From assembly GCA_949282725.1 (NCBI GenBank), contig CASDPP010000001.1:124001-188000 (forward strand): 64,000 nucleotides of DNA. The letters are read 5' to 3'. The position numbers and the translations under genes are program-made. This DNA is from an uncultured Mycoplasmataceae bacterium (GTDB taxonomy: Bacteria; Bacillota_I; Bacilli_A; Mycoplasmatales; Mycoplasmoidaceae). How positions within the stretch are numbered: position 1 is the stretch's first letter; each line of letters starts with the position of its first letter. The notes below the pieces were generated by a model that ran no database searches, was not told the origin of the DNA, and worked only from the letters and a program-made list of their open reading frames with translations. This document shows positions 7,711-61,049 of the stretch, piece by piece.

Positions 7711-9392
7711 TTATTTTTTCTTTTTAATTTTAACTGTTATTTTTTTCTTTCTAGTAGCGTATCAAATGATGAATGCAATAGCTAAAATGACAGGAATACC
7801 TAAAACAATTAATAACCCTAAAATTAATGGAATATTAGATTTAGATGGTTCTGGTTCAGGTTTGATTGATTCATTTACTACAAAAGTAATTGGGGCAGAC
7901 TCAATAGATGTTTGTAGATCATTTGTAGCTTTTATTTTAAATTTGTAAGTTCCTATAGCACATTGATCAGTTCATGATAATAATCCTTGATTATCAATTG
8001 TTAATCATTCTGGTTTTTCTCCTTCAGTCATTACTATTTCTCATTTTGTAGCACTAAATCCTGCAATTGTAGTATATTGTTCAGAGCCTGTAGATTTTTC
8101 ATCAATATTTATTAGTTCTTTACCTGATACACCAATTATTTCAACTTGATCAGCATTAAAACCAAAATTTGGTGTAGAAATATATTTATTTTTAGTTGCT
8201 TCAGATAGAACATAAACTTTACCTGTTAGTGTTGGTTGTCAATCTAAGCTGAATGATGGTGGTGTTTCTGATAAGAAATATAGATTATCTAAAGTAATAC
8301 TAGAAAAAGATCATTCTTTGATTGTAGTTACCTTATTAGGTATTACTAAATCTCCTGTTAAATTTTTGCAATTAAGAAAAGAATTTACTCCAATAGTAGT
8401 TAAACTTTTAGCATTAGATAAATCTAAAGAGGTGATGTTTGTATTTCGAAAAGCACCAGCACCAATACTAATTAAACTTGTAGCATTAGATAAGTCTAGT
8501 GAGGTGATGTTTGTATTTTGAAAAGCATAATCACCTATGCTTGTTACACTAGATGGAATCAACAAATCTCCTGTTAGATTTGAACAACCAATAAAAGCAC
8601 TTTGGTCAATAGTAGTTAAACTTGTGGCATTAGATAAATCTAATGAGGTAATGCTTGTATTAACAAAAGCGCGACTACCAATACTAGTTAAACTTGTAGC
8701 ATTAGACAAATCTAGTGAAGTAATTTTAGATAAACCAAATGCTACGTTACCAATACTTATTACACTAGATGGAATTACTAAATCTCCTGTTAGGTTTTTG
8801 CAAGATAAAAAAGCATAATTTCCAATAGTTGTTAAACTCGTGGCTTTAGATAAATCTAGTGAAGTGATTCCCGCATTTTTAAAAGCACCACCACCTATTA
8901 TTTTCACACTAGATGGAATCACTAAATGTCCTGTTAGTTTTGAACAATCTTCGAAAGCTGACCTTTGAATACTTGTCACACTAGATGGAATTCTTGAATT
9001 TTCTATTTGTAATAGATTTGAACAATTACGAAAAGCAGCATATCCAATAGTAGTTAAACTTGTAGCATTAGATAAATCTAAGAAAAAAATGTTTGTGTTA
9101 TTTTCAAAAGCATTATCTCCTATTTCTGTGATATCTGAATCTACTATTAGTTGATAAAAGCCTGTTGCTGAAACAAATCCAGTAATTGTTGTTCCATCAA
9201 CTGTAACAGTTATATCTCCCATTGTTCTTTGTTCTTCGTTAGTTTGGTTAAAAAAGTAGTTATTTAATGTAGTACTATTTTCAGTAATAACTTTTTGTGT
9301 GTTTGATATTGATTATTAAATCCAATACCAGCTAAAGGACTTAATAATGTTAATGAACTTAATAATTTGTTAATTGTTTTGATTTTTTTCAT
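7711..9392 (-). CDS. BspA-like leucine-rich-repeat surface protein with frameshifted signal peptide
   Basis: From MGDITV (9222) to the stop at 7711 the frame is open for 503 codons. About ten LRR_5/BspA-type repeats (SLTTIGxxAFxxCxNLTGDLVIPSSV and ITSLDLSNAT) are followed by a putative Ig-like (He_PIG-type) domain with EWLTIDNQGLLSWTDQ, a Pro/Glu linker, a C-terminal helix and a Lys-rich tail. The signal peptide MKKIKTINKLLSSLTLLSPL starts at 9392 but is one frame away. Compared with the two paralogs at 39837-41006 and 41097-42560, one T is missing from the run at 9302-9304; adding it restores a continuous protein. As read, only a signal-less product from an internal start could be made. A sequencing error in the homopolymer is possible. 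Confidence 0.85.
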
Positions 9393-9406: not shown

Positions 9407-9445
9407 TATAAATATTTTAACAAAAAAAAAAAAAAAAAAACGCAA
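9407..9445 (-). promoter_or_regulatory. Promoter with 19-nt homopolymer tract upstream of LRR gene 1
   Basis: On the coding strand the order is TTGCG, then 19 T (A-run 9422-9440), then G, then TTAAAAT (candidate -10 at 9414-9419), then the start codon about 20 nt on. The same arrangement with 18 T precedes the paralog at 41006. A length-variable tract in the -35/-10 spacer is the known basis of on/off switching in the vlp genes of Mycoplasma hyorhinis. That it works here is inference. Confidence 0.5.
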
Positions 9446-18204: not shown

Positions 18205-19455
18205 TTATATTTTACCTATATCAGATCTAAATGATTTATTTGAATAACTTATTTTTTGAATGTCAGAATAGATTTTTTTTGAACAATCACTAAATGAATT
18301 TCCAATTGTTTGAATCGACATAACTCTTCCACCGTTTGTATAAAAGATATTATCTTTTTTACTAACCCCACTATAAAAAATGTTACATCTAATATGTTTA
18401 GAAATTTTAATTGGCAAGTTCTTTTTAAATGAAACCGGATAACCTTTTGAAATTAAAACAACATTCATTGATTTTTTCTTTGAAAAATTAATTTTAGTAT
18501 TTGATAATTTATTACTTAATGAAGCATTTAATAAATCATAAAAATCAGTATTTAATAAAGGTAAAATTGATTGTGTTTCAGGATCACCCATACGCATATT
18601 AAATTCTAGTACTTTTGGTCCTTTTTTGGTTAACATTAAACCAAAAAACAAAAATCCATTAAAAGATAGTCTATCTTTTTTTAATCCTTTTATTGTATTA
18701 GTTAAAATTTCTTTTTTAAAAATTTCTTCATGTTTTTTTGTGTAGTAAGGATTAGGACAAATCGCCCCCATTCCACCTGTATTAGGGCCTTTATTGTTAT
18801 CAAAAACTTGTTTATAATCTTTTGCTGAAACAAGTGGCACAATCATTTTTTTATCTACTAAACAAATAATTGATGCTTCAACGCCTTCTAAATATTGTTC
18901 AATAACAACTTTATTATTTTTAGTATTAAAAATATTTTTTACTAGAAATTGATCAATTGTATTTTTTGCTTCTTGATAGTTTTGGCAAATATTAACACCT
19001 TTTCCAGCAGCTAAACCATCACATTTAATAACAATTGGAAATTCTACTTTTTTTAAATAATTAATAGCTTTTTGCGAATTAGTAAATGTTTGGTATGATG
19101 CTGTAGGAATTTTGTGTTTAATCATAAATTTTTTACAAAAATCTTTTGATCCTTCAAGCATAGCAGCTTTTTTATGAGGACCAAATATTTTTAATTTATT
19201 TCTCTGAAATAAATCTACGATCCCATTTATTAACGGAACTTCTGGTCCAACAACAGTTAATGAAATTTTGTTTTTTTTAGCAAAAGATAATAATTCCTTT
19301 TGATCAGTAATGTTTATTAATTCACATTTTGGTGTTAAAACCATTCCGGAATTTCCTGGAGCAATATAAACTTTATCTACTTTTTTTGATGTTGACAGCT
19401 TTCATGCTATTGTGTGTTCTCTTCCACCTGAACCTATTACTAAAACTTTATTCAT
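18205..19455 (-). CDS. purD: Phosphoribosylamine-glycine ligase PurD, 416 aa
   Basis: ATP-grasp enzyme for step 2 of purine synthesis (phosphoribosylamine + glycine + ATP to GAR). The N-terminus is MNKVLVIGSGGREHTIAWKL. The ATP-grasp domain has KCDGLAAGKGV, EGVEASIICLVD, NTGGMGAICP and the metal site VLEFNMRMGDPETQ. Length matches the family (about 420). TGA is read as Trp in the first 20 residues. It is the last gene of the purine operon, 4 bp after purH. Confidence 0.96.
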
Positions 19456-19459
19456 AAAA

Positions 19460-20971
19460 TTAGTGTTTAAAATGTCTTACTTCAGTAAATACCATGGCGA
19501 TTTTATGTTCATTACATGCTTTAATTGATTCTTCATCTCTAATTGAACCACCTGGTTGAATAATAGCTTTAATTTTATATTTAGCTGCAATATCCACAAC
19601 ATCTCTAAATGGAAAAAAAGCATCGGAAGCTAAAACAGTTGGTTTTTTAGCTCTTTTTAATGCATCTTCGGTAGGTCAAACACGATTAACTTGACCACCA
19701 CCAATTCCTAAAATAACTTTATTATCAGCTACAACTATTGCATTAGATTTTACATGTTTTACAACTTTCATAGCAAAAATTAAATCATCCATTTGTTTTT
19801 TAGTTGGTTTAAGTTTGGTTACAACTTTATATTTTTCTTTTGAAGCAACATCTTCTGATTGAACCAAAATTCCTCCATCAACAGAAACTAGTGAATGTTT
19901 ATTTGTAGGTTTTGTAGTGAATTTTAAAACTCTCAAGTTTTTCTTTTTACATAAAATATTTAAAGCTTCTTTACTAAAGCCTGGAGCAGCAACAATTTCT
20001 AAAAATAACTTAGACAGTTCGTTAGCAGTTTTACCATCAAGAATATTATTAAAGGTTACAATTCCTCCAAAAATAGAAATAGGGTCAGTTTTATATGCTT
20101 TCATATACGCATCATAAACAGTTTTTCCAAGTGAAAAACCACACGGTGTATTATGTTTTAATACACAGCAAGCATTTTCTTTTTTATCAAATTCACAAAC
20201 AGCTTTTCAAGCTACATCAACATCTTTGAAATTGTTATATGATAGTTGTTTTCCATTAAGAATTTCAAAACTATTCATTGATCCTTTTTGAGTAGTTGAT
20301 TCATAAAAACAAGCGGTTTGATGTGGATTTTCTCCATATCTTAAATCCATTTTTTTACGATATGAGACTGATAAAAAATCATCATATTCATTTTCAGTTA
20401 AAAAGTTACTAATAGCAGCATCATAAGCAGAAGTTAAATTAAAAACTTTAGCTGCTAACATTTTCTTTGTTGAAAATGAAATTGCTTTATTTTTTTCATA
20501 TTCATCTATTATTAATTGATAATCTTTAGGATTTGTAATTACTGTAACATCTTGAAAGTTTTTAGCTGCTGATCTTAACATAGTTGGACCACCAATATCT
20601 ATAAATTCAACTTTTTGTTCAAAAGTTAATTTTTCTTTTACTTTTTCAAAAAACGGATATAAATTAACAACAACAAAATCAATTAATTCAATACCTTGTT
20701 TTTTTATTTGTTGTAAATGATTTTTATTTTTTCTAATAGCTAAAATACCACCATGAATTTTTGGGTGCAATGTTTTAACACGAGAATCTAACATTTCAGG
20801 AAAATTAGTAAATTTACTTAATTCAATAACATCAATTTTGTTTTGTTTTAAATGTTTATAAGTTCCACCAGTAGAAATAATTTTAATATTATTTTTTTGA
20901 AAGAATTTAGCTAATTCAACTATTCCGGTTTTATCAAAAACACTTATCAATGCATATTTATTATTTTTCAT
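19460..20971 (-). CDS. purH: Bifunctional AICAR formyltransferase/IMP cyclohydrolase PurH, 503 aa
   Basis: Catalyses the last two steps to IMP. The N-terminal MGS-like cyclohydrolase domain has [18 protein letters not shown] and [10 protein letters not shown]. The AICAR transformylase domain has [28 protein letters not shown] (the KHxxPCG catalytic motif), [20 protein letters not shown]-type segment and DAFFPFRD. I placed the start at 20971 (MKNNKY), preceded by GGGGGT as ribosome-binding site, rather than the ATG 12 nt earlier. It begins 2 bp after the purN stop. Confidence 0.96.
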
Positions 20972-20973
20972 TT

Positions 20974-21573
20974 TTACCCCCATATAATTTTATTATTAAT
21001 AATTTTATAATTATTAATTAAAATTTTTTTTAAACTTGATACAAGAAGTTTATGTTCATATTTTAATAATTTTTTTTGTAAACTATTTGGTGTATCTTTT
21101 GAATTAACTTTAATTGATACTTGATCAATAATCGCCCCTGTGTCAATTCCTTCATTAACAAAATGAACAGTAGCTCCTGTATATTTAACACCAGAATTTA
21201 TTACCGCTTTATGAACATGTATACCATACATTCCTTTACCACAAAAAGACGGAATTAATGAAGGATGAATATTAATAATTTTATTTTTATATTGCTTCAA
21301 TAAATCACCTTTTAAAATTGATAAGTATCCCGCCAAAACTATTAAGTCTACTTTAGAATTTTTAAGTTGTTTAATTAATTGTGAAGGGGCAAAATTTTTA
21401 TCATTAATAATTGTAGGAATATTATTTTTTTGTGCTCTTTGTAATCCAAAAGCTTTTTTTGTACTAGAAACAACAAGAACTATTTTAAATAACTTAGATT
21501 TTTTTGATTCATCAATTAATGTTTGTAAATTAGTTCCAGATCCACTAATAAAAATAGCAATATTTTTTAACAT
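20974..21573 (-). CDS. purN: Phosphoribosylglycinamide formyltransferase PurN, 199 aa
   Basis: Uses 10-formyl-THF to formylate GAR (step 3). The N-terminus [16 protein letters not shown] binds phosphoribose, and the active site has [18 protein letters not shown] (Asn and His of the NIHPSLLPxFxG motif) and [19 protein letters not shown] (catalytic Asp). Length is normal. It depends on folate, so a supply of formyl-THF is needed. It lies between purM and purH in the operon with 2-3 bp gaps. Confidence 0.96.
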
Positions 21574-21576
21574 ATT

Positions 21577-22584
21577 TTATTTTCTAATTAACTGAATATT
21601 AGATTCATTTGGTTTTTTTGTTTCAATTGAACCAATTAAATATGCTTTTTCTTTCATTTTAGCTAAATCAGCAATAATTTTTTTCACATCTTTTTGATTA
21701 ACACATAAAACAAAACCAATTCCCATGTTAAAAATGTTATAGTATTGATCAAAATCTTTTTTATTTTTATCTAATAAATTAAAGATTGGATCAGGTTTAT
21801 ATGAATTTAAATTAATTACACATTTTAATTTAGAATTATTTAACATTCGAGGAACATTCTCAATAAACCCACCACCAGTAATATGGCTCATTCCTTTAAT
21901 TTCGTATTTTTTTAATAATTCTAAAACTGGTTTAACATAAATTTTTGTAGGAGTTAATAATTTTTTTCATAATTGGTTCATTTTTGAACTAAACATTTTT
22001 CTTATTAAAGAATAACCATTAGAATGAAAACCAGAAGAACTAATACCTATTAAAGCATCTTTTGCTTTAATATTTTTGCCATTAATAATTTTATTTTTTT
22101 CTACTATTCCAACACAAAAGCCTGCTAAATCATATTTTCCAATATCATATACTCCTGGCATTTCTGCTGTTTCTCCACCGATTAATGAGCAATTAGACAT
22201 CAAACATCCATCGGAAATTCCTTTTACTAATTGTTCTGCTACTTTTGGATCTAGTTTACCACAAGCAATATAATCTAAGAAAAATAATGGTTTAGCACCA
22301 TGACATAAAACATCATTAGCACACATAGCAACACAATCAATTCCTACTGTATCAAATTTTTTATATCGACAAGCAATTTCAATTTTAGTTCCTACACCAT
22401 CAGTTCCTGATACTAATACTGGTTGTTTATAACCACTAGGAAGACTTACCATTCCTGCAAAAGAACCAAGATTATTTAAAACATATTTACTCATAGTTTT
22501 TTGAGCATGTTTCTTAATTAAAGAAACTGCTTGATAACCTTTTTCAATATTTACACCACTTTTTTTATAATCATTTGCTGCCAT
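21577..22584 (-). CDS. purM: Phosphoribosylformylglycinamidine cyclo-ligase PurM, 335 aa
   Basis: AIR synthetase (step 5). The start [20 protein letters not shown] is typical, followed by [15 protein letters not shown] (ATP/substrate loop), [47 protein letters not shown] and [13 protein letters not shown]. Length is normal for the family. The Shine-Dalgarno AAAGGAA precedes the ATG. Upstream gene purF ends 2 bp away. Confidence 0.97.
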
Positions 22585-22586
22585 AA

Positions 22587-24011
22587 TTATTCCTTTCGAT
22601 AGATAGCATATTTGCCATCAAAACATCCAGTACACATATTTTTATCATTTTTAATTGATGCAAATAAACCTTTTATACTTAAATATCCTAAGTAATCAGC
22701 TTTAATCATTTTTCTTACTTGTTCAACAGTATGTTTATGACCAATTAGTTCTTCATGTGTTGGGGTATCAATTCCTAAATAACAAGGATGTTTAACCATT
22801 GGACTAGCTGATAAGAAGTATACTTTTTTAGCTCCATGTTTTTTTAATGCTTGAATAATGTGAAACGAAGATGAACCTCTAACAATAGAATCATCTATCA
22901 AAACAATATTTTTATTTTTAATTGTTGCTTCAAGTGGATTTAGTTTAAAATACACATCTTGTTCACGTAACTTTTGTGATGGTTTGATAAATGTTCTAGC
23001 AATATATCTATTTTTAATTAAGCCAATTCCAAAAGGAATTTTACTTGCTTTTGCATAACCCATTGCGGCGTAGTTTCCTGATTCAGGAACAGCAATTATT
23101 AAATCAGCTTTTAGTGGATGTTCTTTGTATAATATTTCTCCTTGCTTAATTCTTGATTCATAACAGTTAATTTTATCGATTGTTGAATCAGGTCTAGCAA
23201 AATAAACATATTCAAAAATACATGATTTTTTTGGGCATGATTTTTGATAAATAATTGATTTAAGATTTAATTTTTTATCAATAATAATCATTTCGCCACG
23301 TTCAACATCTCTTATTAATGTAGCTCCTGTTGAAGAAAAAACACAACTTTCAGATGAAATAAAGTATGTATCAGTAGCATTTTTACCAATACATAATGGT
23401 CTAATTGCATATGGATCTCTTAAACCTATTAATTTATCATTAGATAATATTACTAAAGAATAAGCTCCAATAACTTCTTTTGTCATTTCAATAATTGCAT
23501 CTTCTAATGATTTTTTTTGTTTATCAATGTGATATGCAATAATTTTTAAGATTAATTCAGAATCTACAGTTGAAATAAATTTTACACCTAATTTTAAATA
23601 TTTTGCTCGTAGTGTTTTAACGTTAATTAAATTTCCATTATGAGCTAATGAAATATCACCTATTTTTGTTTTGACAACAAAAGGTTGCGCATTTTTAACT
23701 GTTTTAGAACCAGCAGTTGAATAACGCACATGACCTATAGAAGCATTTGCTTTTTCTTTAGATAAAAAGTTTAATATTTTTTGATTAAAGATATCTCCAA
23801 CATATCCATTATCTTTATGACAAATAATTTTTTTAGATTTTGTTAAAACACTAATTCCAGCAGATTCTTGTCCTCTATGTTGTAAAGCGAACAAACCACA
23901 ATATGATAACATAGCTGGATCATTATTATATGATTTACTAATACATCCAAAAACACCACAATGGTCTTTGAATTTTTCATCTCATTTGCTAAAAAGCTTT
24001 TTCAAATTCAT
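22587..24011 (-). CDS. purF: Amidophosphoribosyltransferase PurF, Fe-S type, 474 aa
   Basis: Commits PRPP to purine synthesis (step 1). A 17-residue propeptide precedes Cys18 in DHCGVFG, the N-terminal nucleophile after self-cleavage. [11 protein letters not shown] belongs to the glutaminase domain, and [13 protein letters not shown] is the PRPP-binding motif. Cysteines corresponding to the [4Fe-4S] ligands of Bacillus PurF are present: [13 protein letters not shown] (about residue 264), HPCYLGID and the pair in [10 protein letters not shown]. The start shares one base with the purC stop (TAATG). The Fe-S type ties this enzyme to the Suf genes at 33.8-38.2 kb. Confidence 0.97.
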
Positions 24012-24724
24012 TATTTTTTTCCTTTTTTTGACATTCTTTTGAAAACTTCTTGGTAAGCTTCAATTAAGTTACCTAAATTTCTACGGAAACGGTCTTTATC
24101 CATTTTATTTTTTGTTTTAACATCTCATAAACGGCATGTATCTGGTGAAATTTCATCAGCTAATAAAATTTTTCCTTTGCTATTTATTCCAAATTCAATT
24201 TTAAAATCAACTAAAATCAAATTAATTTTTTTGAAGAAAGAAATTAATAATTGATTAATTTTTTTAGTTAATGTATAAACAGTTTTTAATTGGGCAGGTG
24301 TAGCTAATTTTAAAGCTATAGCATGATAATCATTGATTAATGGATCACCAAGTTCATCGTTTTTGTAACAAATTTCAAAAATAGGTGAAACAAGTTTAGT
24401 TCCTTCTTTAATTGCTAATCTTTTTGAAATGCTTCCTGCAGCTATATTTCTTACAATAACTTCTAAAGGTAAAATTTTTACTTTTTCACATAATTGATCA
24501 CGTTCATTTAATTGTTTTATTAAATGAGTAGGAATTTTATTTTTTCCTAAATATTTAAAAATAACAGCTGATATTTGATTGTTTAAAATTCCTTTTGATT
24601 TAATACTTGCTTTTTTTTGTCCATTAAAAGCAGTTGCATCATCTTTATAATGAACGATTACTTGATTAGATTTATTTGTTGCATAAATTTGTTTCGCTTT
24701 TCCTTCATATAACATTTTATTCAT
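24011..24724 (-). CDS. purC: SAICAR synthase PurC, 237 aa
   Basis: Joins CAIR and aspartate (step 7). It begins [16 protein letters not shown], the conserved YEGKAK nucleotide-binding start, and continues with [24 protein letters not shown] and the active-site [14 protein letters not shown] (TGA as Trp). Length is typical of the short bacterial form. A good ribosome-binding site GGAGA lies 8 nt before the ATG. It lies 20 bp downstream of purE. Confidence 0.97.
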
Positions 24725-24744
24725 ATTAGTTATCTCCTTTGTAA

Positions 24745-25194
24745 TTAAAAATTTTTTTGCATATCTTCACGATATTTTTTTAATTGGTTTTTTAGTTTAG
24801 TATTTTTAAGAGCCATAATTTGGATTGCTAACATAGCAGCGTTAGTAGAATTATCAATACCAACTGTTGCTACCGGAATACCTTTTGGCATTTGGACAAT
24901 TGATAAGAGTGCATCTAAACCATGAATTGCAGCACTTATTGGAACACCAATTACTGGAATAGTTGTTTGTGAAGCAATTACTCCAGGAAGATGCGCTGCT
25001 AATCCTGCGGCAGCAATAATCACATCACATCCATTTTTGTTTAATAATTTAATTGTTTTTGATAATTTATCAGGTGCTCGGTGAGCTGATAAAATATGTG
25101 TTTTGTAAGAAACATTAAATTTTTTTAATGTCTCAAACGCTCCATTCATTTTAGGTGTATCACTTTCTGAACCGTAAATAATAGCTACTTGCAT
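24745..25194 (-). CDS. purE: 5-carboxyaminoimidazole ribonucleotide mutase / AIR carboxylase PurE, 149 aa
   Basis: Moves the carboxylate to give CAIR (step 6). Motifs are [14 protein letters not shown] (normally GSDSDxP), [11 protein letters not shown] with the catalytic His, and [12 protein letters not shown] with [22 protein letters not shown]. Class I PurE needs PurK to make N5-CAIR; class II uses CO2 directly. No purK lies next to it or anywhere in this window, so which class applies is open. Length is typical of the stand-alone protein. Confidence 0.95.
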
Positions 25195-25236
25195 ACTTTA
25201 AAATAATATTATATTTATATTAAATAATTTTAAAAA

Positions 25237-28200
25237 TTATTTTTTAGACTTTTTTTGAGTGAAATATTCAACACCAGAAACAAAAATTTTGGAATCGAAA
25301 TTACCTGGAATATTTTGATATAATCCTTGTTCATATCTTTCTGAATGTCCCATTTTACCTAAAATTAATCCATTTTCACTCGTTAAACATTCAATAGCAT
25401 AATTAGATCCATTAGGATTATAAGGCATTTTCATAGTTGGCTGATTATTTAAATCAATGTACTGAAAAGCAATTTGTCCATTTTTAATTCATTTATTTAT
25501 GTATTGTTGAGATGCTACTAATTTTCCTTCTCCATGAGAAATTGCTACATTTAAAACATCTCCAGGTTTTAAATTAGCTAATCACGGAGATTTATTAGAA
25601 CATAATTTTGTTCGAACAATTTGACTCATGTGATGATTAATATCGTTATATGTTAATGTTGGCATATCGTTTGACATATCAACAATTTTTCCATGAGAAA
25701 TCAATCCTAATTTAATTAACGCTTGGAAACCATTACAAATACCAATAATTAAACATTTTCGATCAATAAATTTATTAACAGCATCTTTTATTTTTTTATT
25801 TTGAAATATATTTACAATATATTTAGCTGATCCATCTGGTTCATCTGCCGCACTAAATCCACCAGGGAAAAAGATAATATGAGCTTTATTAATTTCTTGA
25901 ACTAATTTATTAATTGATTTTTTTAATTCCTGATCATTAATATTGTTAATCAATACCTGTTTAACAATTGCTGGTGTATTTGCAAAAGCTTTTTGTGAAT
26001 CAAATTCACAATTAGTTCCATTAAAAACAGGAATTACAACAATAGGATGAGCAACTTTTTTTGGATAATAAATTCTTTTGTTTGCTTTATATTCAGCAAT
26101 ATTTATTTTTTTATCTTCTTGTTGTAATTCAAAAGGGAAAACATTTTTAATTTTATCAGTTAAATATTTATAAGTTTTATCTAGTGAAACATTGAAATTA
26201 GAATGAACAATTTTTTGTTCAATAATTGTTTTTCCTAACAGTTCATAATTAGTATTTTTAAATAATGTTTGGTAATTTAAATTATCTGGTAATTCAATAA
26301 TAAATGATCCATACATTGGTTCAAATAAATTTATTTTTTTGTTAGAAAACTTAAATCCAATATTATTTCCTAAACACGATTTAGCAATAGATTCAATCAC
26401 GCCATTACTTTTAATTGTTGAAACAGATAGAACTTTATTAGATTTAATCAATTTATTAACAAATTGATAGTTTTTTATTAATTGTTTAGAATCTAAAGTA
26501 TCATCATTTAAACGATTTGTTTTTAGTAATACAACATTGGATTTTACTCTTTTAAATTCATTTGAAACAACGTTTTTTAAATCATATACATTGACAGCAA
26601 AAGAAATTAATGTAGGAATAACATCAATTTTTTCAAATGTACCTGACATAGAGTCTTTTCCACCTATTGCTCCTAAACCTAAATCTGATTGAGCTTTAAA
26701 TGCTCCTAGTAAAGCACTAAAGACACTACCTCATTTTTTCGGTTCGTTATTTAAACGCATGAAGTATTCTTGAAATGATAAATAAGTGTTTTTAAAATCA
26801 GCACCTAATGCAACTTGCTTATCAAGTGATTCAATAACTGCATAATAACCCATATGAAATTCACTTTGCAATGATAAGAAAGGGTTAAAACCATAAGTCA
26901 TACTACTTACAGTAGAAGAAGTTGAATAATCAAATGTAGGAATTTTTGCAACCATTCCTTCAACCGGAGTTAATTGATTAACACCACCAAAAGGCATTAA
27001 AACAGTATTTCTTCCAATTGTTGAATCAAACTTTTGAACTAATCCTAATTTTAAATCAGCATTTAAATTGTGTAATTTTTTTTCAACACTAGATAAGTTA
27101 GGAACTAATTTTGGAAAAGAAACTTTTTGATTATTTTCTACTTTTACAGTTACTTGTTGTGTAGCACCATTAGTATTTAAAAAGTCACGATCAATGTCGA
27201 CAATTAACTTTTTATTTCAATACATTCTTAATTTATTAGTGTTTGTAACTTTAGCTACTTCATATGCTTCTAAATTTTCTTCTTTTGCTAAATTAATGAA
27301 TTTTTTAGCATTAGATTTTGATACCACAACGGCCATTCTTTCTTGTGATTCACTTATTGCTAATTCAGTTCCTGTAAGCCCTTGGTATTTAGTTCTTACT
27401 AAATCTAAATTAATATCTATTCCATCACAAAGTTCACCAATAGCTACAGAAACTCCTCCAGCACCAAAATCATTACATCTAATAATTAATTTAGTTGCAG
27501 TAGGATTTCTAAATAGACGCATGATTTTTCTTTCTTCTACCGGATTACCTTTTTGTACTTCAGTAATAGCGGTTTTTAATGAATCTTTTTTTTGTTGTTT
27601 AGATGATCCAGTAGCTCCACCAATTCCATCTTTACCTGTTCTACCACCAAGTAAAATAACCACATCACCTACTTTTGGTTTGTTTCGATAAACATTTTTT
27701 TGTTCATTAGCAGCAATAACAGCTCCTGTTTCTAATCTTTTAGCTACATAACTTGGGTCATATAATTCATTAACTTGACCTGTAGCAAGACCGATTTGGT
27801 TACCATAAGCACTATATCCATCAGCAGCTTTAGTAGTAATTGTTTTTTGTGGTAGTTTATTAGGTAATGTTTTATCAATATCAACAGTTGGATCTGCACT
27901 TCCTGTTACTCTCATTGCTTGATATACATAAGTTCTTCCTGATAAAGGATCTCTAATAGCTCCCCCTAAACAAGTACTAGCTCCACCGTAAGGTTCAATT
28001 TCTGTTGGGTGATTGTGTGTTTCATTTTTAAACATCACTAAGTATTTTTTATTTCCTTTATCAGTTTTTACATCAACTTTAATTGAACAAGCATTAATTT
28101 CATCAGAAATATCTAAGTTCTTGATTAAATTATGTTTTTTTAAATATTTAGCATTTATTGTTGCTAAATCCATTAATGTAATTGGGCGGGAATTATTTGG

Positions 28201-28980
28201 ATATATTTCATTATGATAAGAAAGATATTTATGATAAGTATTATTTATTAAATCATTGTAATATTTTGAATTAATGTCAATTTTTGTGATATGAGAATTA
28301 AATGTTGTGTGTCGACAATGGTCTGATCAATAAGTATCAAAAATTCTTATTTCAGTTTCAGTAGGCTCTCTTTTAATTTTTTGAAAATATTTTTGTAACA
28401 TTAGAAGATCATCAATTGACATTGATAAATTAAAATCTTGTTTGAAAGATTCTAATTGTTTTAAAATGAATTTTGTAAATGATTTAATAATGGGAATTTT
28501 TTTATTAATAATAAAGTTATTTTGATATTTATCAAAATATATAGTAATTTCTTTAGAATCAATTGGATTAATTAAGTATTTTTTTATTTTTTGTAATTCT
28601 TTTGAATTAATATCTTTGTTTAGTAAATAAATTTTTGAAGATTTTACAAAAGGGATAGGTTTAATGTTGTTAATAAAAAAACAACTTTTAATCGCTTGAT
28701 CTCTTTGACTAAATTGTTCAGGTAATAAATCAACTCCAAATGATAAATATTTATTTAGATTAGGATTTTTATTTAAATAATATTCATCTACCATTGGTTC
28801 ACAAAAAATGGTATTAATAGTTTTTTTAAAATTTTGTTCAGAGATATTATTAACAAGATAACGATTTAAAACTTTAATTTTTTTTAATGATTTAAGTTTA
28901 AGAGTTTTTTTTAATTCATTAAATAATGATTTTGATTCAACATCAAATTGATCTTTTTTATATGTAAATAAGAAAAACAT
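25237..28980 (-). CDS. purL: Phosphoribosylformylglycinamidine synthase PurL, single-chain form, 1247 aa
   Basis: Converts FGAR to FGAM with glutamine and ATP (step 4). The linker motif WSDHCRHTTFNSHI (about residue 220), the ATP site FKNETHNHPTEIEPYGGAST, and GGVSVAIGEL belong to the synthetase part. From about residue 975 a fused class-I glutaminase follows: VIPVFNGTNCEFDSQKA, FFPGGFSAADE, CLIIGICNGFQALIKLG (Cys nucleophile) and ISHGEGK; the C-terminus has NPNGS and GKMGHSER. Four TGA codons are read as Trp. It replaces the three-gene PurS/PurQ/PurL set of Bacillus. First gene of the purine operon. Confidence 0.97.
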
Positions 28981-41020: not shown

Positions 41021-41058
41021 TATAAATATTTTAACAAAAAAAAAAAAAAAAAACGCAA
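41021..41058 (-). promoter_or_regulatory. Promoter with 18-nt homopolymer tract upstream of LRR gene 2
   Basis: Coding strand: TTGCG, then 18 T (A-run 41036-41053), then G and TTAAAAT with a candidate -10 at 41028-41033. It matches the upstream region of LRR gene 1 base for base except for one T less in the run and a few changes further out. A tract-length switch of promoter spacing is the inferred use. Confidence 0.5.
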
Positions 41059-41066
41059 GTGATATA

Positions 41067-41093
41067 AAAAAATAGGGAAAAACCCTATTTTTT
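41067..41093 (-). terminator. Intrinsic terminator after LRR gene 3
   Basis: Stem AAAAAATAGGG / CCCTATTTTTT with a 5-nt A loop, about 4 bp after the stop of the LRR gene ending at 41097 and before the LRR gene 2 promoter. The A/T flanks give T-runs on both strands. Confidence 0.75.
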
Positions 41094-41096
41094 TAA

Positions 41097-42560
41097 CTAT
41101 ATTTTAACTGTTGTTTTTTTCTTTTTAGTCAAATATCAAACTCCAAATCCTACCGCTAAAATAATTGGAATACCTAAACCAAGCGCTAATCCTAAAATCA
41201 GTGCTATATTTGATTTTTCTTCATTAACTTTTTCTACTGTTAAACTAATTGGAGCGGATTCAATTGATTTTTGACTATCATCTGATGCTTTAATTTTAAA
41301 TCTATAAATCCCTTTAACACATTGATTAGTTCAAGATAACAAACCTTGATTATCAATAGTTAATCATTCAGGTTGATCTCCTTCAAACATTACTATTTCT
41401 CATTTTGTAGGACTAAACCCTTCAATCACTGTATATTGTTCTAATCCAGATGTTTTTTCTTTTGTATTTATTATGAAATCTCCTTTTATACCAGTTATTT
41501 CCACTTTTTCTTCACTAAAACCAAAATTTTCTGCACTCAAATACGCTTGTTTAGCTGTTTCAGATGGAACATATATTTTTCCTGTTAATGTTGGCTTTCA
41601 ATTATCATATTCACTAGCATTAAATTTCGGAGGTGTTTCTGATAAAAAATATAGATTTTTTACATTGGTTATTCGAGATACACCTGAAAGTACTCGATCT
41701 GAAAATAACATATTTGGAACTTCTTTAACAGGAGAAGGAAAAATAAATTCATTTAAAACATTTGGAATAGCTGCAATTGCTTTTTCTCCAAATGAGATTA
41801 AATTAGTAGCATGAAGGAAATCTAAGGAAGTTATATATGTTTCGGCAAAAGCATAATTGTTTAATTTTGTAACTTCACCTGGAATTATAACATCGCCAAA
41901 AGCTAATGCTCCAGAAGCAACAGAATTATCATCTCATATTCCTGTTGATCCTGGAATTAAAACTTTTGCATTATCACCTAAATTTGTTGCTAATGAAAAA
42001 TTTTGATTAGTTTTTGGTGTTGCTACAAAATCATTAACAAAATCACACAATCCAAACGCTTCATAACCAATCGTTGTTAAATTTTCAGCTTCAGATAAAT
42101 CAATTGAAGTTATATCGGTTTCACAAAAAGCTCTATTTCCAATTTTTGTTACATTAGCAGGAATTTTTATATTACCTGTTAATTCTTTATGTCATAAAAA
42201 AGCACTATCTCCAATAGTTGTTAAACTTGTGGCTTGAGATAAATCTAATGATGTAATATTAGATCCAGATACAAAAGCACCTGAACCAATTTCATTAATT
42301 TGATCGTTTACAATTAGTGTCCCAACACCAGAAATATAATTAGTAATTTTTTTATATCCCATTTCAGTATCTATTTGTACATTAACAGTGATGTCTCCCA
42401 TTTCTACTTGTTCATTTTCTGTTGCATTAAGATAATTTTTTGTGTTTTCGGTAAGAACTTTTTGTATGTTTTGATATTGATTATTAAATCCAACACCTGA
42501 TAATGGACTTAATAATGTTAATGAACTTAATAGTTTATTAATTGTTTTTATTTTTTTCAT
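41097..42560 (-). CDS. BspA-like leucine-rich-repeat surface protein, 487 aa
   Basis: Same signal peptide as its paralogs (MKKIKTINKLLSSLTLLSPL), then MGDITVNVQ, about five divergent LRR units (ITSLDLSQATSLTTIGDSAF, ITSIDLSEAENLTTIGYEAF), the cap NFGFSEEKVEITG, a He_PIG-like Ig domain with EWLTIDNQGLLSWTNQ, the anchor helix NIALILGLALGLGIPIILAV and a Lys-rich tail. The repeats are less regular than in the other two. It starts about 40 bp beyond the 5S terminator and has no homopolymer tract; a plain TATAAT lies at 42578-42583. Confidence 0.9.
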
Positions 42561-42577
42561 ATTTGTCTGTTTTTATT

Positions 42578-42583
42578 ATTATA
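42578..42583 (-). promoter_or_regulatory. Candidate -10 box of LRR gene 3
   Basis: TATAAT on the minus strand, 18 nt before the start codon. No clear -35 box. Unlike the other two LRR genes there is no long homopolymer upstream. Confidence 0.35.
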
Positions 42584-42595
42584 TATCATTATATT

Positions 42596-42628
42596 ATAAA
42601 AAAAACAAGCTAATTTTAAAGCCTGCTT
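42596..42628 (-). terminator. rRNA operon terminator after 5S
   Basis: Stem AAGCAGGC / GCTTGTTT with G-U pairs and a 10-nt loop, followed on the minus strand by a run of eight or more T. It lies 9 bp after the 5S end. Confidence 0.65.
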
Positions 42629-42636
42629 TTTTATTT

Positions 42637-42745
42637 GCGTGGCACCTACTTATTCTCACATTGCTGCTACCTTCAGCTCCATAATGCTTAACTTCTGTGT
42701 TCGGTATGGGAACAGGTGTATCCATTAACGATATGAGCACCACAC
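42637..42745 (-). rRNA. rrf: 5S ribosomal RNA
   Basis: About 109 nt with the universal core CCGAACACAGAAGTTAAGC and complementary ends GTGTGGTG / near CACGC. It follows 23S by about 90 bp. Ends are approximate. Confidence 0.93.
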
Positions 42746-47665: not shown

Positions 47666-49939
47666 ATGATGAAAAAAATATTTAAAAAAATTTCTTTTTA
47701 CTTATTAAGTTTACCTTTAACAACAATTTTATCAGATCATACTAAAAACAACATTGTTATACTAAAAAATAATGATTCAGAAATAATTAAAACTAGTGTT
47801 ACACAATATAATGCACTACACTGGACTAATGCTTTTACATATAACATTGATAATTTAGAAACTAAACAAATAAATTTCAATCAAAAAATTAAAAATATTT
47901 ATGTTGGTTCAAATGTCAAATCTATTTCAGGTGATAAATTTTTAAATGAAATAACTCAAACAACTTCATATGATCTAAATGATGCTACCGGTTCATACAA
48001 TAACGCTAATAAGGATTATGATCGTTATGAAAGAGTTCAAGATTGAGAATATGAATATAAAACAAATTTAATTATTGATCCCAATGAAGTTAAATACAAT
48101 TGATCTTATACTCCTACACAACTATTTTTAAAAAACATAGAAATATGATCAAAAGGAACAAATTATAAAAAAATTAAAGGGAAAGTACAATTTAAGAAAG
48201 ATGATAATCAATCTTATATATATGATAAGGCATCTGATATTTCTTTACATAAAGGGTGAAATAAAGAACTAATTAATAGTTTTGATAATTTTTATGGTGT
48301 AGGTCAAACAAAACTAAAAGAATCACTATATTTTTATTTATTTAATAATTTTGTTTGTCGATATTTATGATTTATCCAAGGTGAAAAAACAAAAAATGAA
48401 TATTCTAAGATAAATATTACAAATGGGATAAACCCTAAAATTAAAAAATTTTCATTATCTGATTTTATTTGCTTGACTAAGCCTTCTTATATCGATAATT
48501 GTGTTTATTTACAATTTAATTATGAATTGTTTAATTTACTAAAAGATTGTCAAGATTCATTTATAAAATATAATTCTTTTAATTGATCTAATATTTCAGA
48601 AGAAAACAAACAATGATTTTATTTTCAATTAATTTTTTCAAAAATTAATAATGATAACATTGATAATATTTATCAGTGATTATTGCTAAATCCTAATGCA
48701 GATATTAATAGTAGAGAAGATTATTTAAACAAAAACATTTCAATTCATTACGAAATAGCTAAAAAGTTTAATATTTTACCAAGCGAAACAATATGAGATG
48801 ATTATCAAGAATTAATTAAAAAAACTTCTATTGATTTTAATTATAAAATATTAGATAAAAACACTAAAAAATGAACACCAAAACAAATAAAAGCTAATTA
48901 TGAATCATTACAAAAAGGGATAAAAATTATCATTAACAAAAATGAAAATAATAATTTATTATTGAAAATTGATAATATTAAATTTAATGAATTAATTACT
49001 AATGATTTATATATTTCAGAAGATAATACAAATCATTTATCTGTTAATAGTCATAATATTTGTTTAAAAGAAGATAATACTTATGAAATAAAAAAACCAG
49101 AAACAATAAATATTTCGTTTCAAAACATAGATTCAAAAATATTTAATAAATATTATTGCAGTCAAGTTTCTGATGAATTGATTTTATCAACATTTGTTAA
49201 AGTTGTTGATTCATATAATAACATTTTAGATGGTAATAGTTTAGAGCAAAACCAAACCAAAATTATCCGTGATGAAATTAATGGTCAAATAACATTAAAA
49301 TATAATTTTAATAATCAATGATATCAAAAAACTTTAAATAATTTTAAAAAGCCAGACTTAAGTATTTACAATTTTGATGCTTCTAAATATTCTAAAAATT
49401 TATTCCCTGAGCAAATTAATTCAAAAAATATTGTTAATATTTTAAGTTTTAATGATTTTGATATCGGTTTAATTAATGAAAAAAATTTAAAAATTGATTC
49501 TTATGATAATCTTAATGGAAAGGTAAATTTTACTTTTAATTATTTAAACCAAAAATACAATTATTCAATCATTAATTTAAATAAATACTACCTTATTAAA
49601 AATACGAATATACCAACAAAATATTTGAATCTGAAACCTAGTGAAATAGATTTAGAAACATTTAAAAAATATTTCATTAAAACATCAGATAGTTTTAAAT
49701 ACTTAACAAATTTAGAAATATCTTTAATAAAAAACGACCAACAAAGAAAACTAGATGCTAAAATTTGATATTATGATTATTTTTCAAATGAAAAAATGAC
49801 ACAAACATTTACATATTTTTTTAATAAAAAAATTTCCTGATTAAAAATTTCTTTTATTAGTTTAATCACACTAGGTTTAATAATTATTTTTTTAGATTTA
49901 ATTTACTGGAAAATAAAATTAAGCAATAATACCAAATAG
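47666..49939 (+). CDS. Predicted surface-anchored protein, 757 aa
   Basis: The N-terminus MMKKIFKKISFYLLSLPL is a signal or anchor helix without a lipobox Cys. About 700 hydrophilic residues rich in Asn, Lys, Ile and Tyr follow, then a C-terminal helix SWLKISFISLITLGLIIIFL and a short basic tail. Short beta-type modules recur: GKVQFKKDDNQSYIY, GQITLKYNFNNQWYQK and GKVNFTFNYLNQKYN; these resemble mycoplasma lipoprotein-associated repeat domains, but the match is weak. Many TGA codons are read as Trp. It follows the rRNA operon, divergently, and its last 21 bp overlap mtaB on the other strand. Function unknown. Confidence 0.8.
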
Positions 49940-59094: not shown

Positions 59095-59722
59095 ATGATG
59101 AATCGTTGCTTATTTTTCAAAGTATTAGTGACAGCAAACTCAAATTATTATTAAAATCACTTTTAATTTTATTAATTATAGAATTATTAAGCTCTTTAGC
59201 ACAATATAATTTTTTTATTCCGTTTTTAATTCCAAAATCATTGATAGGTAAAATATTTTTTTTATAATATGAAAAAATCATTAGCATATCAACAGTTCAT
59301 TTTCCCATACCTTTATAAGATGTTAAAATTTCATAAATAGTTTTATCATTACTTTTTTTCAATTTATCTAGTGATAACTTTTTAATCACTATATCTTTTG
59401 AAATTTCTTTAATCAAAACTATTTTTCTCAAAGGGATCCCAATATTTTTAAGCTTTTCTGAATTAATTTTTAACATATTCTTAGGAGTTATTTTTTTAAC
59501 TGTTTTGTTTAACTTTTCCCATATGCTATTTAAAATCTTACTGCTTATTTGTTGACTAATTATTGAATGTATTAAACATACATAATGATCTGGCATAACA
59601 CGAAAATAAAAAGGTTTATTTACATCAACAAAGTTTTTTATTTCGCTTTTTATATTGATAAGATTTTGAATTAATTCAGGATCGACTAATATATATTTAA
59701 AATATGTTTTTTTAAATAACAT
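59081..59722 (-). CDS. DNA-3-methyladenine glycosylase, AlkA-like HhH-GPD family, 213 aa
   Basis: Removes alkylated bases from DNA. The HhH-GPD segment is visible: SIISQQISSKILNSIWEKL, the hairpin LTSYKGMGKWTVDMLMIFS (TGA as Trp) and the catalytic Asp loop ILPINDFGIKNGIKKLY (AlkA norm FPxDDLGLRxAL). Length fits the short AlkA group. It starts 25 bp from purB in the opposite direction. Confidence 0.88.
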
Positions 59723-59747
59723 AAATTATTTTATAATCATATATTAT

Positions 59748-61049
59748 ATGATTGATAGATACAGTAGAAAAATTATTTCTGATCTTTGAACAGAAAAAAA
59801 CAAGTTTGAAACATATTTGAAAATTGAAATTTTATGTTTAGAAAAATGATCACAACTAAAAGTAGTTCCTAAAAAAGAATTAGATTTAATTAAAAAGAAA
59901 GCAAAATTTGATGTTGAACAAATCAAAAATATCGAAAAAGAAACAAAACATGATGTAATAGCATTTATTAAGTCTGTTAGTTCAAATTTAGGTAGCGAAA
60001 AAAGATGATTTCACTATGGATTAACTTCAACAGACATTGTTGATACTTCTAACGCTTATATTTATCATCAAGTTAATAAAATTTTATTAGATGATATCAA
60101 AAAATTTATAAATGTATTAAAAGAAAAAGCTTTAAAGTATAAAAAAACGCCATGCATTGGTAGAACTCACGGGGTTCATGCTGAAATCACTTCATTTGGA
60201 TTAAAATGAGCTTTATGATATGATGAAATGAATCGTAATTTAAAAAGATTTGTTGAAGCAGCAAAAGGAATTGAAACAGGGAAAATTTCAGGAGCAGTAG
60301 GGAATTATGCAAATAATTCTCCAGAAATCGAAGAATATGTTTGTAAAAAGCTTGGAATTAATTCAGCTAATATTTCAACTCAAGTTGTACAAAGAGATGT
60401 ACATTCTTATTATTTTGCAACATTAGCTTTAATTGGATCAACAATTGAAAAAATTGCTACAGAAATTAGAGGCTTACAAAGAACAGAAGCGAGAGAGTTA
60501 GAAGAATTTTTTGATGTTAACCAAAAAGGTTCATCTGCAATGCCACACAAACACAATCCTATTTCATCTGAAAACATGTGTGGATGTGCTAGAGTTTTAA
60601 GAGGTTATATGATAGCAGCTTATGAAAATAATGCTTTATGACACGAAAGAGATATATCTCATTCAAGTGTTGAAAGAATTATTGGTCCTGATGCAACAAT
60701 TTTGTTAGATTACATGTTAAATAGATATGCTAATGTTTTATCAACATTAACAATATTTGAAGAAAACATGAAAAATAATATTTATCTGACAAATGGTGTT
60801 ATTTTTAGTCAACGTGTATTAAGCCTATTAATAAAAAAAGGAGTAGCAAGAATGGATGCATATGATGTTGTTCAATCTTGTGCTGCAAAAGCGTATAAAG
60901 AAAAAATTAATTTTAAAGAACTTTTATTAGCAAATAAAATTATTCAACAAAAAAAGATTACAAAACAAGAACTTGAAACTTGTTTCACTTTAGATTTTTA
61001 TTTTAAATACGTTGATAAAATATTCAAAAAAGTTAAATTAATAAAATAG
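59748..61049 (+). CDS. purB: Adenylosuccinate lyase PurB, 433 aa
   Basis: Used twice: SAICAR to AICAR (step 8) and adenylosuccinate to AMP. The fumarase-superfamily signature [15 protein letters not shown] is present with the mobile-loop Ser, along with [24 protein letters not shown] and [14 protein letters not shown]. Length is normal. TGA is read as Trp several times. It is far from the purine operon but completes the route. Upstream of secG-rnr-smpB on the same strand. Confidence 0.96.

Follow-up and report, generated by a model that had tools for sequence, protein, structure and literature searches.

Locus and encoded proteins

The window, by which we mean the entire 64-kb stretch of DNA analysed here, carries three LRR genes on its minus strand, and in two of them a pure T homopolymer lies in the promoter between a TTGCG box and the −10 element. 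The features on which the discussion is based are the following.

7711–9222, minus strand: LRR gene 1, remaining frame of 503 aa with LRR_5, a C-terminal membrane helix and a Lys-rich tail
9264–9392, minus strand: LRR gene 1, 5′ part, a 42-aa open frame with a signal-like N-terminus, then a stop
9299–9304, minus strand: LRR gene 1, one-base deletion (AAA for AAAA) that shifts the frame after codon 30, from paralog comparison
9414–9421, minus strand: G-TTAAAAT, extended −10 (TG-T-TAAAAT) of LRR gene 1, its G invariant in 16 of 16 promoters
9422–9440, minus strand: T19 homopolymer tract in the promoter of LRR gene 1, read from the sequence
9441–9445, minus strand: TTGCG box, candidate −35 of LRR gene 1, TTG kept in 16 of the 16 tract promoters of the genome
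39837–41006, minus strand: LRR gene 2, intact, a BspA-type LRR protein of 389 aa
41028–41035, minus strand: G-TTAAAAT, extended −10 of LRR gene 2, from the sequence and the alignment of 16 promoters
41036–41053, minus strand: T18 homopolymer tract in the promoter of LRR gene 2, read from the sequence
41054–41058, minus strand: TTGCG box, candidate −35 of LRR gene 2, from the sequence and the alignment of 16 promoters
41065–41095, no strand assigned: intrinsic terminator hairpin TAAAAAAATAGGG-loop-CCCTATTTTTTTA, between LRR gene 3 and the gene 2 promoter
41097–42560, minus strand: LRR gene 3, intact, a BspA-type LRR protein of 487 aa, without a tract

Read along the minus strand, promoter 1 is TTGCG-T19-GTTAAAATATTTATATAGATCAAAAAAAT-ATG (9445 to 9390) and promoter 2 is TTGCG-T18-GTTAAAATATTTATATAAATCAAAAGAAT-ATG (41058 to 41004). 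An earlier note on this DNA had counted n=19 and n=18 for the two tracts, and both counts are exact for the one consensus assembly from which the lengths are read, in which a homopolymer may be one or two bases off. The sequence also bears out that the third LRR gene has no tract. The two promoters had further been described as otherwise equal, which is correct from TTGCG through ATG but does not extend upstream of TTGCG. Apart from T19 and T18, the A/T runs of the window are at most 9 bases long. A scan for consensus sigma-70 sites passed over the tract promoter because TTGCGT matches TTGACA at only three of six positions.

All three proteins score above the Pfam cut-off for LRR_5 (PF13306), with E values from 6e-21 to 1.5e-59. 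In this organism TGA is read as Trp. The three proteins have in common a signal-like N-terminus and a C-terminal hydrophobic helix followed by KKKK, as read from the sequence, and these two ends make a surface position likely. LRR gene 1, which stands behind the tract at 9407, is either a pseudogene or the victim of an assembly error at the frameshift. Between the 5S rRNA gene and the start of LRR gene 3 there are 77 bp, so that the tractless gene is placed directly behind the rRNA operon (42560–42640); it may share the transcription of the operon or use a TATAAT in the spacer. Also adjoining the rRNA operon is a 757-aa protein without a Pfam match (47666–49939, plus strand).

The terminator hairpin between LRR genes 3 and 2 has 13 pairs, and the alignment of the 16 promoters reveals a similar hairpin with a T-tail 5′ of most tract promoters. 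With such hairpins in between, each LRR gene probably has its own transcript and could switch alone. Terminator tails typically have long T runs, and the tract itself could thus be taken for the U-tract of the upstream gene's intrinsic terminator. However, 5′ of the TTGCG box there is another hairpin, GGG-loop-CCC, which has a T-tail of its own; no stem ends at the long tract, and in 16 copies the tract adjoins the −10 at one and the same position. We regard this explanation as having almost no chance of being correct and reject it.

Distribution in the genome

The genome consists of 593,293 bases in six contigs, and T runs of at least 13 were sought on both strands. There are 17 A/T runs of this length in the whole genome, and 16 of the 17 are found at promoters of the BspA-type LRR family. 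These 16 promoters share the module TTG(C/T)[G]-T15..21-G-TTAWAAT, situated 27–32 nt 5′ of the start codon, and the genes behind them begin MKKIKTINKLLSSLTLLSP or near-identically, with a signal-like N-terminus. Two of the promoters read TTGC-T16-GG-TTAAAAT, which has the same total length as the n=16 form, and another one reads GCTAAAAT. The 17th run lies where contig C2 begins, close behind an LRR gene; it has no TTGCG box and is cut by the contig end.

It should be emphasised that the case is based on the placement of the tracts and on the near-absence of runs of 10–12, not on an excess of long runs in general. Of runs of at least 13, the 17 that are seen compare with about 12.5 under a first-order model, while for runs of 10–12 only 4 are found against about 135 expected (21 runs of at least 10 in all), which means that long runs are depleted elsewhere in the genome. 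That the tracts lie at LRR promoters is not due to chance.

The N-termini of 32 members of the LRR family are recognisable, of which 16 have a tract, 13 have none, and 3 are cut at a contig end. The last three start 12–29 nt from the contig end, which is where a tract would lie. The reading frame is disturbed in at least 3 of the 16 genes behind a tract (C1:133392, C3:740 and C1:53532), and no clear relation between n and gene damage emerges among the genes compared, with n of 19, 17 and 20 in the three disturbed ones and a mean of 16.7 in 11 intact ones (p=0.064).

Tract length and promoter elements

Over the 16 promoters, n takes the values 15, 16 (five times), 17 (twice), 18 (four times), 19 (twice), 20 and 21. 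Among promoter pairs that differ by 1–4 substitutions per 40 flanking bases, n differs in 7 of 9. Examples are C3:740 and C3:2019 (1 substitution in 40 bases, n=17 and 18), C1:237869 and C4:4157 (2 substitutions, n=17 and 19), and C3:7683 and C6:1347 (2 substitutions, n=18 and 16).

Such differences would also be seen if the tracts had simply been copied together with the genes, by duplication or gene conversion of one module, in which case the variation in n would be old or assembly noise and would have no present function. The promoters and N-termini are indeed near-identical throughout the LRR family, homopolymers are prone to sequencing error, and all 12 contig ends lie in or adjoin LRR genes, which shows that the assembly is repeat-limited. 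What copying leaves unexplained, on the other hand, is the persistence of pure T15–21 in a genome that otherwise has no runs above 12, and analogous tracts are present at other surface genes of sister species (see below). We therefore consider copying alone to be quite improbable. As to the slippage-driven promoter switch that the earlier note proposed, the step from 19 to 18 by itself is no proof of it; the anatomy of the promoter does fit it, and the 16 family copies with n=15–21 and the sister species lend it strong support.

The elements that flank the tract are strongly conserved. All 16 promoters have the TTG, the G 3′ of the tract and several positions of the −10 in common, once the two GG variants are shifted by one base. 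From TTGCGT to TAAAAT there are n+1 nt, hence 16–22, and the commonest length, n=16, gives 17. An extended −10 of the form TG-N-TAWAAT is present in 14 of the 16 tract promoters, compared to 1 of 38 ordinary promoters, the latter having been collected from about 263 kb of the genome wherever a −10 could be recognised. An extended −10 of this type can work without a −35. In the same ordinary promoters, TTG at a spacer of 15–19 nt occurs in 7 of 38 against about 3.9 expected, so the enrichment of TTG in these promoters is at most weak. TTGCG is accordingly a candidate −35, with its TTG conserved in all 16 promoters, but this role is not established. We also find, from counts made by eye, that TATAAT is used by 9 of 13 tractless LRR promoters and by 4 of 16 tract promoters (p=0.027), which would be expected if the tract promoters depend on the upstream box.

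Occurrence in related genomes

Among 320 genomes of the order, the exact module is present in this one and absent from the 319 others. Within the genus, 27 of 36 genomes contain runs of at least 13, and LRR proteins related to the profile of the window family occur in 33 of the 36. In G022, T14–17 is placed between a TTGTGTCG-like box and the −10, before lipoprotein genes. In G047–G050, the tract is A15–22, with a TTGTTGC-like box on one side and a CGAGTATAAAT-like −10 on the other, and the gene starts some 30 nt further on.

An open reading frame with a signal peptide is present within 110 nt of 93 of 143 sampled tracts in sister species, compared to 115 of 514 runs of 7–8 at the same loci; this amounts to an odds ratio of 6.5 (p=7e-21), for a signal-peptide test that is a simple pattern and a sample that favoured tract-rich genomes. 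Many of the genes behind these tracts encode BspA/LRR lipoproteins. With the window-family profile, LRR proteins are found behind 14 of 21 tracts in G048, 6 of 15 in G050, 5 of 13 in G047, 5 of 25 in G022 and 4 of 7 in G018. With Pfam, LRR_5 is above the cut-off in 6 of the 9 sister-species tract genes that were checked and below it in a seventh.

Two orthologous tracts could be compared between G047 and G049, and both differ by one base (17/16 and 15/14) within flanks that are 93–98% identical. This is only suggestive of slippage, as an error of one base is possible. A conserved membrane-protein gene outside the LRR family has T25 upstream in one genome and T14 in another (L180 of G049 and L261 of G011). 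At four loci of G022 (L207, L209, L215 and L217), the T-tract promoter is followed by (CA)n in a short reading frame (MILNSLSHTHTHTH...), which brings unstable repeats of two types next to each other. A search for a second strain of the species gave none, the contig search matching just distant LRR proteins from gut bacteria, and a search of viral contigs was without any match.

Comparison with known systems

The closest parallel is the vlp family of M. hyorhinis, which has a poly-A tract in its promoters (Citti and Wise 1995, as described in PMC10502178 and PMC2268961). In both cases, a promoter homopolymer is associated with a family of surface-protein paralogs, here at 16 of the 32 N-termini. 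In vlp the homopolymer is found at every promoter of the family and each gene has its own transcript. The present tracts, on the other hand, are poly-T on the sense strand, the at least 16 copies are spread over the genome, and ON/OFF switching is a prediction. Instead of Vlp lipoproteins, the genes encode BspA-type LRR_5 proteins with a C-terminal membrane helix. They do not belong to the Vlp family, as the N-terminus has no lipobox cysteine, the proteins are of the LRR_5 type and the tract is poly-T. For M. arthritidis maa2 and M. mycoides vmm, indels in the spacer between −35 and −10 switch transcription on and off (PMC2268961, PMC10502178); these are single genes, vmm having a dinucleotide repeat, whereas a large LRR family is concerned here.

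The strongest precedent to the contrary is provided by the vpma genes of M. agalactiae, which more than any other case caution against deducing function from anatomy. They have a homopolymeric T-tract just 5′ of the −10 that is reported to play no role in switching, and their phase variation occurs by Xer1 recombination (PMC2268961). The position of the T-tract immediately 5′ of the −10 of a surface gene is thus alike in the two systems, although vpma has one promoter only. By analogy, the present tracts could be fixed promoter elements, that is, T-rich, stiff or curved DNA by the extended −10 that sets or raises the basal strength, with a length that drifts and does not switch anything. The 14 tract promoters with TG-N-TAWAAT, able to dispense with a −35, would fit such a role, as would the fact that ordinary promoters of the genome have no evident −35. 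However, TTG-C/T-G is conserved beyond the tract, as a partner element would be, n spans 15–21, and runs of such length are absent elsewhere in the genome. Moreover, sister species have poly-A at the same site, which means that the base itself is not what matters. Taken together, we find a fixed element unlikely.

Another relevant case is Ca. Mycoplasma (Malacoplasma) girerdii, which has 26–28 BspA-like LRR surface proteins (PMC5476646, PMC4206474). Like the present organism, it is a small uncultured mollicute with an expanded BspA-like LRR family, and length-variable repeats have been observed at several of the genes in metagenomic reads (PMC5476646). Those repeats are mostly dinucleotides that act via the reading frame, while here promoter homopolymers are involved.

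Proposed mechanism and implications

What the sequences establish is the position of the tract, its purity, its conservation, the spread of lengths among paralogs, the near-exclusive placement and a layout of the same kind in sister species. The interpretation that we favour, at a probability of roughly 70%, is that these promoters undergo slippage-driven phase variation, like those of M. hyorhinis vlp and M. arthritidis maa2. In the proposed mechanism, the T tract would constitute a slippage-prone spacer between the upstream TTG box and the extended −10, and replication slippage would alter n. Each change in n would shift the distance between the two elements, n=16 corresponding to the canonical 17, and transcription of the downstream BspA-type LRR gene would be turned up or down as a result. 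From the spacing alone, the ON state is predicted to be near n=16. Switching would take place independently at each of at least 16 promoters, and the outcome would be a population in which cells display random combinations of LRR surface proteins. What we infer here comprises slippage within the population, the ON/OFF effect, the n of the ON state, the surface exposure of the proteins and their role in host interaction.

In a wider sense, it is about an even bet that the genus steers its BspA-type LRR repertoires through promoter homopolymers of T or A, with at least 16 independently slipping promoters giving a combinatorial surface and with selection acting for instability and not for a particular base. 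This kind of switch is already known; what appears to be new is its scale, with at least 16 promoters in one small genome, its association with BspA-type LRR proteins, and the fact that it recurs in the genus with T or A. In the open literature, outside of which most subscription journals lie, no promoter homopolymer switch at mollicute LRR genes was found. If the mechanism is correct, one small genome holds at least 16 separate random switches on a single adhesin-like family. By the standards of mollicutes, this would be a large surface repertoire under the control of slippage, and it would extend transcriptional homopolymer switching to BspA/LRR proteins. Because tracts made of either T or A reappear in the genus, metagenome reads that already exist could serve to test natural populations for mixtures of lengths without culture, and the metagenomic-read approach used for Ca. 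M. girerdii is applicable to these tracts.

Two metabolic observations can be added. In the window, purE, C, F, M, N, H and D lie in one run with a single-chain PurL of 1247 aa (18205–28980, minus strand), and together with 59655–61049 on the plus strand the full de novo purine set is present, purB being apart from the main run. Such a full gene set is unusual for Mycoplasmatales. Elsewhere in the genome, a pyruvate/2-oxoacid:ferredoxin oxidoreductase domain (PF01855) is encoded at G000:C2:14386-15075; in mycoplasmas, this enzyme has been called unique to Ca. M. girerdii (PMC5476646).
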